Shown here one piece after another: positions 12,913 through 42,627 of a DNA stretch of 64,000 nt. The notes beneath the pieces are model-generated. The model did not search any database, was not told the origin of the DNA, and saw only the letters and a program-made list of their open reading frames with translations. The position numbers were made by a program, and so were the translations under genes. The stretch is from a virus. Where the stretch lies: the IMG/VR virus record IMGVR_UViG_3300021085_000009, positions 1 through 64,000 of that record; one strand, written 5' to 3'. How positions within the stretch are numbered: position 1 is the stretch's first letter; the number at the start of each line of letters is the position of its first letter.

Positions 12913-12941
12913 ATTATACCAGGACCAGACACAATTGTACA
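12913..12941 (-). promoter_or_regulatory. Early-type promoter (TGTACA-17-TATAAT)
   Basis: On the minus strand: TGTACA (12941-12936), 17 bp spacer ending TGG, then TATAAT (12918-12913). It matches the other promoters of this window base for base in both boxes and drives the tiny-gene operon starting at 12881. A repeat element lies immediately upstream. Confidence 0.75.
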
Positions 12942-24839: not shown

Positions 24840-25218
24840 GATTGCCTGCGTGTGATGGAGCGGTCCAACCTTCAGGTTTAATTAGGTCCGGAACTCCTAG
24901 TGGATTTGGCCTGCTTGGCTTTTGTCCCACTTCTTTGTTCATATTAGCTTCTAGTACAGCATCCCAAGCTTTATAGGGATCAACACCAAAAGCATCGAGT
25001 GTACCAATGGCAACAACACATAGATCAATTAAACCATCTACGATTTCTTCTGGGTCATTATTAGTAACCGCAGCTGTTGTTTCCATTAGTTCTTCTTTCA
25101 AAAAATCAACTCTAAACTCAAGAAACTTTTTTAGTTTCTCAGGATTGTTTTCAACCCATTGCCTAGTAAGATATTTGCTTTGCATTAAGTGAATATCTTC
25201 TACCCAGTTCTTAGACAT
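24817..25218 (-). CDS. MazG-like NTP pyrophosphohydrolase
   Basis: A 133-residue, mostly helical protein with the all-alpha NTP-pyrophosphatase pattern: FLKEELMETTAAV, then EEIVDGLIDLCVVAIGTL, supplying the Glu/Asp residues that bind magnesium. These enzymes hydrolyse NTP or dNTP to monophosphates. T4 gp56, which destroys dCTP so that hydroxymethyl-dCTP is used, belongs to the same broad superfamily. A gp56-like role is possible here because the phage also carries a dCMP hydroxymethylase-like gene, but the substrate is not visible from sequence. Confidence 0.7.
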   Translation of the reverse strand: MSKNWVEDIHLMQSKYLTRQWVENNPEKLKKFLEFRVDFLKEELMETTAAVTNNDPEEIVDGLIDLCVVAIGTLDAFGVDPYKAWDAVLEANMNKEVGQKPSRPNPLGVPDLIKPEGWTAPSHAGNHGKFNDI

Positions 25219-25507
25219 TTGTAATAATCCCTTGCTTTTCTGGCACTTGAATTGGACTGCTCATAGCTTTAACTTGATCTACCAATTCTTCTACTGGTTC
25301 TACAGTAAATAGAATAAAACTATTTGGAATAGTAATCCCTTCTGCTGCTTTTGTATAAGCCATAAATGGCATAAAACCAATTTTACCTTCACCTGCTGGA
25401 ATCAAAGAGTAACCATCTGTAATGGTAATTGATTCTTCGTTTTGTGTAACTTTACCAACTACTTCTTCACCAGAAGATAGTCGTACTAATTTATATTCAT
25501 CTTTCAT
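25211..25507 (-). CDS. Sm-like small protein (paralog 1)
   Basis: A 98-residue protein starting MKDEYKLVRLSSGEEVVGKV with an SGEEVVGKV strand-turn-strand typical of LSm folds, and a second part ending FILFTVEPVEELVDQVKAM. Sm-like proteins of cyanophage origin have been described; those in bacteria (Hfq) bind RNA. A second protein of this type is encoded at 39743-40141. Expression follows the promoter at 25528-25556. RNA binding is inferred, not shown. Confidence 0.6.
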   Translation of the reverse strand: MKDEYKLVRLSSGEEVVGKVTQNEESITITDGYSLIPAGEGKIGFMPFMAYTKAAEGITIPNSFILFTVEPVEELVDQVKAMSSPIQVPEKQGIITNV

Positions 25508-25527: not shown

Positions 25528-25556
25528 ATTATACCATATTTTATATTAAATGTACA
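25528..25556 (-). promoter_or_regulatory. Early-type promoter
   Basis: TGTACA (25556-25551), 17 bp spacer ending TGG, TATAAT (25533-25528) on the minus strand. Drives the Sm-like, pyrophosphatase-like, primase-like and following genes. Confidence 0.75.
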
Positions 25557-38832: not shown

Positions 38833-39399
38833 TTATACCATAAACAATTCTAGTTTTTCTAAATCTTTTTCAGCTTTAGCAAATTTCTTAATTTTCTCAT
38901 CAGAAGTTTTAACCTTAGCGATTCTTTGTCTTAGTGTATCGACATACTCCATGGTTTGCTGTGCACCTGCATCATCCATCCCCATTTGAGCAAAATCTTC
39001 AATACCCATTCTTTCAATAAACCTAAATTTAATATCCTGTTGCTTTTTCTCTTTTGTAATTCTACGAATAAACGCAAAGTAACAAATTTGAGTAAAGTAT
39101 GAAAATGCGTTTGGCTTTCCAGTTCTTGTTGCTGTTTCAATATTGTAATTAGAAATAGCCTTTAAACAATTTTCTACTGCATCCATAACCATTTCTTCTC
39201 TGTATGTGTATCTTACAAAGTTTGGTCTGTGGGATAAACCTTCTGATATTTTTAAGAAGCAAGAGGCAATATAGTTAGTAACCTTAGGGGTTTCTTTACC
39301 TTCTTCTTCCAACTTATTTTTATTAGTAACATACTCAACTACAGCGAGTGAAAATTCTTTGTTATTAATATAGTGTGGCTTTTGCTTTGGATCTGCCAT
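38833..39399 (-). CDS. 55: Late sigma factor gp55
   Basis: A 188-residue sigma-70-like protein: AVENCLKAISNYNIE, KPNAFSYFTQICYFAFIRRI typical of region 2, and a C-terminal LEKLELFMV tail that resembles the clamp-binding end of T4 gp55. It directs RNA polymerase to TATAAATA late promoters, seen upstream of structural genes here. gp33 was not identified. Promoter at 39435-39463. Confidence 0.9.
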   Translation of the reverse strand: MADPKQKPHYINNKEFSLAVVEYVTNKNKLEEEGKETPKVTNYIASCFLKISEGLSHRPNFVRYTYREEMVMDAVENCLKAISNYNIETATRTGKPNAFSYFTQICYFAFIRRITKEKKQQDIKFRFIERMGIEDFAQMGMDDAGAQQTMEYVDTLRQRIAKVKTSDEKIKKFAKAEKDLEKLELFMV

Positions 39400-39434: not shown

Positions 39435-39463
39435 ATTATACCATAAAATCATTCATTTGTACA
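39435..39463 (-). promoter_or_regulatory. Early-type promoter of gp55
   Basis: TGTACA (39463-39458), 17 bp spacer ending TGG, TATAAT (39440-39435) on the minus strand, over the last codons of the upstream small gene. Confidence 0.75.
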
Positions 39464-39652
39464 TAGTTTTGTGAATGTTGTTTGCATTAATCCATCGTCT
39501 GTTTCATTAACGCTAACGCGTAGGGTGTCCCCATCATTAAAGTTAAAAAACTTTTGAATGTTAAGATCTTTATCGATTACTAATGCTTTATTCTTTCGAT
39601 GTATTCTATAGTCGCAAAACATCATCTCATTTTGATCAGGTTTATATATCAT
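39449..39652 (-). CDS. Small hypothetical protein
   Basis: A 67-residue protein (MIYKPDQNEMMFCDYRIHRK) with an alternating strand pattern in its middle (LNIQKFFNFNDGDTLRVSV). No family recognised. It ends inside the gp55 promoter region. It lies below a 90 bp intergenic stretch holding a plus-strand promoter. Confidence 0.5.
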   Translation of the reverse strand: MIYKPDQNEMMFCDYRIHRKNKALVIDKDLNIQKFFNFNDGDTLRVSVNETDDGLMQTTFTKLCTNE

Positions 39653-39680
39653 TTTAATTGCCTTTTATTGCAGAAAGTCC

Positions 39681-39709
39681 TGTACAAATTACAGAAAACG
39701 TGGTATAAT
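39681..39709 (+). promoter_or_regulatory. Plus-strand copy of the early-type promoter
   Basis: TGTACA (39681-39686), 17 bp spacer ending TGG, TATAAT (39704-39709), the same signature but pointing the other way. A transcript would run antisense over the Sm-like gene and toward UvsW; no plus-strand gene of credible length follows. Confidence 0.65.
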
Positions 39710-39742
39710 AATAGAGTGGTTCCGAGGGAGGGTAATATAAAG

Positions 39743-40141
39743 CTAATGTATTGTTCGTTCCTTTGGTTCATCATCAACTGATGGTTCCTCCATATCGCTG
39801 GTAGGATCGATGTCTCTTAACATTCTGACATATTCTTCTAAACCTTCAGAGTCCGAATCGCCGACAGGCGTCTCCAAAGTTCTTTTCTGTGAAGCTATAC
39901 TGATATAGGCTTCTCTTATTTCTGCACTAATTTCTGCTGAATGTATAATTCTCGATCGTAGTATTTTAAATAGGGTTTGGTCCGAAAATTGGAACCATGG
40001 TGTTAATTGGTATTGACCTACTAAATTTTGAATAAGTTTAAATGGTCTTTCGACAACGTAATTTTCACCATCAACTTTGTTAACTAAGGCAATAATGTCT
40101 TCGCCACTATATAATTTAAATTGTCTTACCGATATGTCCAT
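39743..40141 (-). CDS. Sm-like protein (paralog 2)
   Basis: A 132-residue protein starting MDISVRQFKLYSGEDIIALV, with the SGEDIIALV strand-turn-strand pattern seen in the paralog at 25211-25507 and in Hfq-like folds, then GENYVVERPFKLIQNL. A longer acidic C-terminal tail (DPTSDMEEPSVDDEP) follows. Probably RNA-binding, by fold only. Its stop is followed by the plus-strand promoter at 39681-39709. Overlaps the UvsW gene end by one base. Confidence 0.6.
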   Translation of the reverse strand: MDISVRQFKLYSGEDIIALVNKVDGENYVVERPFKLIQNLVGQYQLTPWFQFSDQTLFKILRSRIIHSAEISAEIREAYISIASQKRTLETPVGDSDSEGLEEYVRMLRDIDPTSDMEEPSVDDEPKERTIH

Positions 40142-41652
40142 TAAATTTTTATCTCAAATATTTTATAATTAAATTTCTCTTTACTATATATGCTAATTCG
40201 TACACCTGCATGTTCTAATGTGTAATTCTTCTTGTTCTTCCAATGTAGGTCATCTGCAATATCGTACACTTTAGTATTTATACCATCTGCGCTCTTCCTT
40301 AGCCCTCTTCCTATGCTTTGTAAAACCCTAATTTGAGACTTACTCGGTGAAGCAAATACGATATTATGAAGACGCTTAATATTAATCCCAGTAGAAAAAG
40401 TACCCATGGAAGCAACAATAATTGCGTTATCTTGTTGCTCTGTGATTGATCTAATCTTCTCCCTAGTATCGACATCGGTTTCTCCTGAGACATAAAATAA
40501 TTTCCTTTCCTCGGAACGAGGTAGTTTACTTATCTTATCCTGTAAAAGCGAGTGCAATGGTTTACCATGCTTCTCTACAAATTGAAATAGTATAAGTGTG
40601 TTTCCATCTTGGTCTAAAGCTAAATTACTAATAAAATTATTCCGTGGTTCGTACTTTACAATAAAATCTAGCTCATCGTGGTATTTCATTTTCTTTACAA
40701 GTTTACAATACTCGTCTGCATACTTTAAAAGTAATACTTGAATTTCTAATTGTGCTAATGTGTTTTTGTCCATTAACTCTTTTGTTGTTGTAACTTTATG
40801 AACAGGTCCAAACAGACCTTCTAAAACTAACTGATGAGTTAATGTTCCATCAAGGGTTCCTGTCGTACCTACTCTGTACTTAGCTTCTGTACATTTTTCT
40901 AATATTGAAGTTAATGACTTAGCTTTAAATGAATGTGCTTCATCTCCTATAACCATACCGTATTGCTCAAACCACTCATGGTGCATCTTATATATTGACT
41001 GCCATGTGGTAATAATAACCCTAGGTTTTATATTATATTTTTCTTTGCCTGAGTATATTCTATGGCAATTATCTTCTACATTCCAATCCTCAAGTTGAGA
41101 ATAGTCATTAAAGTCAGAATACATCTGCTCAACAAGTGACGTCGTTGGTACTACTAAAAGGACTTTGTTATCATACGTCTCTAGGTAATATCTAACAGCT
41201 AAATATATGATTAAACTCTTTCCAGAAGCCGTTGGTGATAGTAGAAGGCTTTTAGTTTTTGAAAGCAAGAGCGAGAGTGCCGTAAGTTGATAGTCATGGG
41301 GGATAATACCCTTACCGTTCACGCTAGGCCGTAATTCACTCATAAACCCTTCAATATCAATAATTTGTTCAATATCAGGCCTTGAATAGTACTCATCTTC
41401 CTCTATCTTCAGGGTGTAGTCCCTAACTTCACAGAATTCATTAAGGTATTGGAACAACCCACCATACAACGTCTTACGCCTAAGATCGTACAAGCGTATT
41501 TTACCATCCCACATCCTATTTTTATATGCTGGCATGAATTTATACCCTGGAACATAAAAACAAAAGTGTTCTGCCAACTCTTGCTCAATACCAGGATCAG
41601 TCAGTATCTGTATAAAGGTTTCGTTAAGTTTTTTAACTGTCACTATGTCCAT
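40141..41652 (-). CDS. uvsW: UvsW RNA-DNA/DNA helicase
   Basis: A 503-residue superfamily-2 helicase: Walker A LLSPTASGKSLI, DEAH box GDEAHSFK, and motif VI QSIGRGLRKS. UvsW unwinds R-loops and branched DNA, switching T4 from origin- to recombination-dependent replication. Immediately followed upstream by UvsY. T4 has the same pair. Confidence 0.93.
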   Translation of the reverse strand: MDIVTVKKLNETFIQILTDPGIEQELAEHFCFYVPGYKFMPAYKNRMWDGKIRLYDLRRKTLYGGLFQYLNEFCEVRDYTLKIEEDEYYSRPDIEQIIDIEGFMSELRPSVNGKGIIPHDYQLTALSLLLSKTKSLLLSPTASGKSLIIYLAVRYYLETYDNKVLLVVPTTSLVEQMYSDFNDYSQLEDWNVEDNCHRIYSGKEKYNIKPRVIITTWQSIYKMHHEWFEQYGMVIGDEAHSFKAKSLTSILEKCTEAKYRVGTTGTLDGTLTHQLVLEGLFGPVHKVTTTKELMDKNTLAQLEIQVLLLKYADEYCKLVKKMKYHDELDFIVKYEPRNNFISNLALDQDGNTLILFQFVEKHGKPLHSLLQDKISKLPRSEERKLFYVSGETDVDTREKIRSITEQQDNAIIVASMGTFSTGINIKRLHNIVFASPSKSQIRVLQSIGRGLRKSADGINTKVYDIADDLHWKNKKNYTLEHAGVRISIYSKEKFNYKIFEIKI

Positions 41653-42099
41653 TTAAATACCACTAGTAAACTTTCTCCACTCAATCATATTTTTAATAGT
41701 TTGGTGTCTCCACTTAACATTATCTAAAATTTCCTTTAGTGTGTCTGCAGTGGTTTTAAGATACTCAATACGGGCTTGAGCTTTTTGAATATCGGGATCA
41801 GAATCATAGTAATAATCCATATCGCCTTTTAATACTTTTAATCCATTTAATGGATCGTAATCCCAGCCTCTATCGTCAATATCCTCTTTGGACATTTTTC
41901 CATTATAATGCAACCACTTATCTTTAAGTAGAACCTTAAATTCCATTTCTCTTTTCTTAAGATCTAAACGATTGTGTGTTACAAATTCTAGGTATTTTGC
42001 GTGGAGTTTTGCTGAGTCTTTAGAAGATTCGTCAAGTTGCATTTCATCAATGTTTGAGTCTTTCTTCCACATTTCTAATATTTTTTCAATATCTAACAT
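41653..42099 (-). CDS. uvsY: UvsY recombination mediator
   Basis: A 148-residue protein matching the UvsY pattern: IEKILEMWKKDSNIDEMQL at the start and NMIEWRKFTSGI at the end, with a helical middle. UvsY loads UvsX on gp32-coated ssDNA. UvsX is encoded at 15536-16603. Spaced one base from UvsW. Confidence 0.85.
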   Translation of the reverse strand: MLDIEKILEMWKKDSNIDEMQLDESSKDSAKLHAKYLEFVTHNRLDLKKREMEFKVLLKDKWLHYNGKMSKEDIDDRGWDYDPLNGLKVLKGDMDYYYDSDPDIQKAQARIEYLKTTADTLKEILDNVKWRHQTIKNMIEWRKFTSGI

Positions 42100-42619: not shown

Positions 42620-42627
42620 TATTTATA
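42620..42627 (-). promoter_or_regulatory. Late promoter (TATAAATA)
   Basis: The minus strand reads TATAAATAG 19 bases before the start of the gp19-like gene, with AGGAG as ribosome site between them. Confidence 0.7.

Follow-up and report, generated by a model that had tools for sequence, protein, structure and literature searches.

The Sm-like/gp55 gap

The DNA analysed here, referred to as the window, covers positions 1 to 64,000 of the 136,814-base virus record IMGVR_UViG_3300021085_000009, which family matches to a gp23-like capsid protein, uvsY, uvsW and gp55 place among the T4-like phages. Every gene of the window with a family match is carried on the minus strand, and no tRNA genes were found in it. 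The gap between the gene of an Sm-like protein and that of gp55 (Table 1) forms the border between a late operon (tail tube, uvsY, uvsW and, at its end, the Sm-like gene) and an early block (gp55, 47 and 46). Two divergent early promoters lie in this gap, one directed into gp55 and the other opposed, and the predicted antisense RNA from the latter overlaps the 3' end of the Sm-like gene. Late promoters of the type found ahead of the late operon occur 33 times on the minus strand and eight times on the plus strand of the record. The 67-aa open reading frame within the gap has no match in PHROG or Pfam.

Table 1. Features at and around the gap, with positions in the window.
Feature	Position	Strand	Basis or remark
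gp55, the late sigma factor; opens the early recombination block	38833..39399	-	PHROG 234, E 1.8e-50
Early promoter reading into gp55 (sense), facing away from the opposed promoter	39435..39463	-	promoter search
67-aa open reading frame in the Sm-like/gp55 gap	39449..39652	-	only in close relatives of the window
Upstream promoter element TTGCAGAAAGTCC	39668..39680	+	also at minus-strand copies (three positions, see text)
Opposed early (host sigma70-type) promoter	39681..39709	+	perfect match to the genome's early promoter
Predicted transcript start and G-rich leader with small hairpin	39716..39740	+	differs from the family consensus GTnnnCCGGGGAGGnnAGAGGTATAC
Sm-like protein gene, 132 aa	39743..40141	-	PHROG 527, E 2e-12; PDB 3BY7; AlphaFold and Foldseek
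11-codon frame behind the promoter, judged non-coding	39746..39781	+	not conserved
uvsW-like helicase	40141..41652	-	PHROG 16, E 2e-98; Pfam UvsW_N
uvsY-like recombination mediator	41653..42099	-	PHROG 231, E 1.7e-36
T4-type late promoter TATAAATA	42620..42627	-	ahead of tail tube, uvsY, uvsW and Sm-like genes

The early promoter consensus of the genome is TGTACA-N14-TGGTATAAT, and the opposed copy combines a -35 hexamer TGTACA (39681-39686), a 17-nt spacer and a -10 hexamer TATAAT (39704-39709) with the TGG extension, the predicted transcript start lying near 39716. The element upstream of it has minus-strand counterparts (tgcagaaaaccc) at 12941, 36011 and 126280. As the initial annotation had it, this is the single plus-strand copy in the window, against nine perfect copies on the minus strand; the whole record holds 15 perfect copies on the minus and two on the plus strand (39681 and 97313), and 60 first-order Markov simulations of the genome yielded none. 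Equally correct was the description of the promoter as pointing across the 3' end of the Sm-like gene, with the promoter at 39681-39709 and the stop at 39743, an arrangement in which, as for a cis-encoded antisense RNA, the promoter is opposed to a gene and reads into it.

The Sm-like fold assigned to the neighbouring protein was confirmed by profile and structure comparison with PDB 3BY7. A profile of 39 Sm-like relatives matched this entry with an E-value of 1.8e-4 and the TIP60 chains with 9e-6, and the AlphaFold model (pLDDT 83) aligned to 3BY7 in Foldseek with an E-value of 1.9e-6 and a target TM score of 0.87. The C-terminal tail (39743-39751 and the matching part of the relatives) is hypervariable, with a final His that is invariant in the 39 relatives; the protein usually ends in -TIH and the codons for this ending show synonymous changes, which indicates a conserved C-terminal motif. 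A second Sm-like paralogue of 98 aa (25211-25507, minus strand, PHROG 527) directly follows an early promoter at 25556, and the phage thus seems to have one early and one late Sm-like protein.

Conservation of the opposed promoter and its leader

Conservation of the opposed promoter, named at the outset as a check, was examined in 80 relatives (71-100% identity) obtained by searching IMG/VR with gp55. One of these, L117, has a different gene upstream of gp55 and was set aside; in each of the 79 with the Sm-like gene at that place, an opposed sigma70-type promoter is present in the gap, its distance to the gp55 start being 95-304 nt and mostly about 125 nt. The same holds for all 16 named Kyanoviridae with this gene order, in which the -35 hexamer is TTGACA in every case except C48C1 (TTGACG) and each promoter scores at least as high as about 99% of the shuffles of its own gap. 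Together with the Markov simulations, these scores rule out a chance match as the source of the promoter. Inspection of the gap in the Pelagibacter phage HTVC008M revealed TTGACA-17-TATAAT, and in Melnitz a weaker TTGCTT-17-TATATT. No counter-example with this gene order was met in 97 loci, counting the window's own copy, HTVC008M and Melnitz. Across the relatives the order of Sm-like gene, gap and gp55 is constant, and the promoter hexamers are conserved and the spacer mostly is not. Nine sequences from this and nearby species differ hardly at all between about 39655 and 39758, in contrast to both flanking frames, which vary; the promoter itself is identical in the nine apart from one N in L008.

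The promoter is followed by a G-rich leader some 25 nt long, which begins about 7 nt after the -10 box and reads GTnnnCCGGGGAGGnnAGAGGTATAC in the pelagiphage-like group and ACTCTGTCAGGGTTCAAGAGA in cyanophages. In the former group the leader lies 24.8 +/- 0.8 nt from the -10 box and 5 to 19 nt from the Sm-like stop, and because its spacing is fixed to the -10 box and variable to the stop, the leader belongs to the promoter. Just after the start, the base composition in the relatives is 38% G versus 7% C. In the window's genome, the first 25 nt contain 10 and 12 G residues behind the two opposed promoters versus 2-5 behind the fifteen others, and only the two opposed promoters carry the leader.

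The arms of the leader hairpin change together among the relatives (AACC/GGTT, ATCC/GGAT, GTCC/GGAC, TGTC/GACA and TGGC/GCCA). Over 56 loci the mean pairing score is 8.19, as compared with 6.39 +/- 0.35 when the 3' halves are swapped, and none of 2000 swaps reached the real value, a score that is perhaps somewhat inflated by the kinship of the sequences. The hairpin is followed by AGAGGTATAC, with no U-run. A strand test, with 15 G-U versus 18 A-C pairs, does not single out a strand, and pairing of the arms within the late mRNA is conceivable too; as the hairpin lies just behind the Sm-like stop on the minus strand, it might be read as a 3'-end or terminator element of that mRNA, with the promoter incidental. 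We regard this as very improbable: the spacing is fixed to the promoter rather than to the stop, the same element follows the promoter at 97313 near an unrelated gene, the minus strand has no U-run either, and both promoter hexamers are conserved around a variable spacer.

A model of the full element found one full-length match per contig in 12 contigs, all in the gap, with a shorter match in G006. At E <= 0.01 the full-model matches in these contigs were 91 sense versus 15 opposed, the opposed exceptions outside the gap being a second site in the window's genome (G000) and in G001 and one partial match in G002. In most cyanophages searched, a leader model of their own gave 1-3 further matches. 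The seven of these extra copies that were examined are co-directional and stand before small early-type genes and tRNA genes, several of the seven near gene 5 or lysozyme genes, and it follows that the leader is not reserved for antisense RNA; the idea that it is unique to opposed promoters holds in the pelagiphage-like contigs and is ruled out in cyanophages. Examples of extra copies are NC_006820 162737-162800, KU686210 14368-14433 and OP535465 8328-8382. By comparison of the sequences, the opposed copy is the one leader copy found throughout the family.

The position of the leader at a fixed distance after promoters, its compensatory changes and the extra cyanophage copies, with seven co-directional with small early-type genes, could also be explained if the leader were a polymerase-modifying site, acting like HK022 put in antitermination or processivity on a few special early transcripts, the opposed one included. 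This explanation is quite improbable, as the leader differs from put in both sequence and structure. To our knowledge, put sites are known only from lambdoid phages.

Coding potential and transcript type

The only plus-strand frame behind the promoter was correctly given as 11 codons (MYCSFLWFIIN, 39746-39781). In L007 and L008 a 3-base deletion removes its stop, and in 72 relatives the peptide from the first ATG would range from 1 to 80 residues; an encoded peptide is ruled out, since the frame is not conserved across these 72 loci. Only two terminator-like sites were found within 400 nt in the 72 loci, and no discrete small RNA ending at an intrinsic terminator was therefore found within that distance. 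A search for known Rfam families gave no match at the gathering score in the window, and in ten relatives it returned tRNAs alone.

Judging from the comparison of the genomes, a conserved early RNA that is not translated and that runs antisense to the late uvsY-uvsW-Sm operon is thus very likely at this locus. As the opposed promoter and leader are present in every relative checked, these marine phages probably all make a non-coding RNA at the gap that has so far gone unrecognised. The initial proposal of a regulatory RNA, perhaps bound by the Sm-like protein, is in this way supported in part, and strongly as far as a regulatory or at least non-coding antisense RNA is concerned (the promoter and leader are conserved and the frame is not); for binding by the Sm-like protein, the adjacency of its gene is the one pointer.

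That the RNA would act in trans as a small RNA, possibly as a partner of the Sm-like protein and with the 5' hairpin as its functional part, fits the conserved structured leader, the confirmed Sm fold of the neighbouring protein and the constant gene order around the gap. This is nevertheless unlikely. At least 70 of the 72 loci lack a terminator within 400 nt, which argues against a defined small RNA; no Rfam match, no Hfq-like U-rich tail and no target were found; and the leader sequences of cyanophages and pelagiphage-like phages are unlike each other.

The second opposed site and a possible late/early switch

The second opposed promoter, at 97313 on the plus strand and outside the window, has the same leader, and with the full model such a second site appears only there and at the matching place in G001. 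It lies in a gap of about 280 bases (G000:97097-97376) between gene-25-like and gene-5-like genes, is opposed to both, and is followed by a plus-strand frame (97354-97704) that overlies the gene-5-like gene. The gap is nearly identical in G001 and contains a TCTCGAGA palindrome in A/T runs, together with repeated CATATCGAAG and GCATGCA words.

This second copy bears on the main and strongest rival explanation, in which the opposed early transcript would form an R-loop nucleated by the G cluster and prime leading-strand synthesis as at a T4-type replication origin, implying two origins, at 39681 and 97313, in the window's genome. The primer RNA of T4 oriE is annotated in GenBank as the complement of the gene 5 transcript, and the second copy reads antisense into the gene-5-like gene and adjoins the gene-25-like gene; the oriE geometry of an early transcript antisense to gene 5 is found for this copy only. 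T4 oriF lies between genes 25 and uvsY, and the first copy is 3' of uvsY-uvsW-Sm. Furthermore, oriE has an early promoter and T4 origins are located in late-transcribed regions (PMC3016281), the perfect early consensus of the opposed promoter points to the pre-late type expected of an R-loop origin, the non-template strand is G-rich directly after the start, and the gap at 97.1-97.4 kb with its palindromes and repeats is nearly identical in G001.

Against these likenesses stand the absence of an A+T-rich unwinding element downstream (AT 60-65% after the leader versus 84% upstream), the absence of a GC-skew step at both sites in G000, the sense genes that cyanophage leaders also precede, and the cases of G002 and G004, which each have a gene-5-like match but no further opposed site of full length. 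In six of seven cyanophages (L226-L239), fourfold-site coding-strand GC skew is less negative after the gap than before it, a shift that is without consistent sign change and is confounded by early and late expression. On balance a T4-type origin is possible, although we lean against it. The wider proposal, in which replication throughout the marine T4-like phages (cyanophages and pelagiphages) would start from this gap as an ancestral origin, with a structured G-rich primer RNA forming the R-loop, is rather doubtful; if true, it would place the origin beside its own off-switch, next to a late operon encoding the R-loop-removing UvsW.

The most likely mechanism, to which we tentatively assign a probability of about 0.42, is early antisense transcription or interference in cis at the late/early border. 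The features on which it builds, namely the promoter, its leader, their conservation and the layout of the operons, are observed directly. Unmodified host polymerase would read the opposed promoter directly after infection, and an untranslated RNA with the G-rich 5' hairpin leader would run antisense into the 3' end of the Sm-like gene and on towards uvsW. Acting in cis, this transcription might pair or collide with leaky sense transcription, and expression of the late operon, chiefly of its R-loop helicase UvsW, would be prevented until gp55 takes over, with the early block insulated from read-through by the opposed transcription. The part of the leader would be to make the RNA more stable or to maintain polymerase processivity. 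We infer the existence, length and effect of such an RNA. In T4 a late promoter drives UvsW, which clears R-loops from origins (PMC3016281). Several points weigh against cis action: interference alone needs no conserved leader, the leader also stands behind co-directional early promoters in seven cyanophages, the promoter is about 2 kb from the uvsW start, which is far for simple antisense control, and the hairpin arms could pair in the late mRNA.

Relation to known systems

Marine T4-like phages count among the most abundant phages of the ocean, and next to nothing has been established about their non-coding transcription and replication origins. Lying beside a late sigma factor and an R-loop helicase, the gap offers a single defined site at which to study early/late switching, antisense control and origin choice, and isolates that carry it already exist (HTVC008M, S-PM2, P-SSM2 and Melnitz). 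Among the papers searched, none reported this conserved opposed promoter or its leader.

Among known elements, the PeSL cassettes of T4-type phages are described as promoter-terminator cassettes that shuffle genes. The present element resembles them in its strong sigma70-type early promoter and stem-loop; the hairpin here differs in having no U-run, in being fixed in one place and in the scarcity of terminator-like sites noted above (two in 72 loci within 400 nt), by which the stem-loop does not appear as a terminator.

With T4 oriE the locus shares an early promoter opposed to late genes, in the case of the 97313 copy at the 3' end of a gene-5-like gene. However, oriE is annotated inside gene 5 and has repEA and repEB coded on the early strand, whereas here nothing protein-coding follows the first copy, the conserved site is the Sm-gp55 gap, and an origin function is putative. 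T4 oriF (ori uvsY) is likewise a promoter-driven origin near uvsY-uvsW with a transcript made before late transcription, but its primer is the sense uvsY transcript, and it requires a downstream A+T-rich unwinding element that is lacking here.

A parallel from a marine phage is CfrI of cyanophage S-PM2, an antisense RNA with complementarity to a phage gene at its 3' end (PMC2984593, PMC9602691). Both are antisense to a gene 3' end in a T4-like marine phage, the RNA in the present case being predicted from sequence; CfrI covers psbA together with a homing endonuclease gene, whereas the element described here lies elsewhere and is found throughout the family sample. As kinds, both antisense RNA of a marine T4-like phage (CfrI, PMC2984593) and transcript-primed origins (T4) have precedents.
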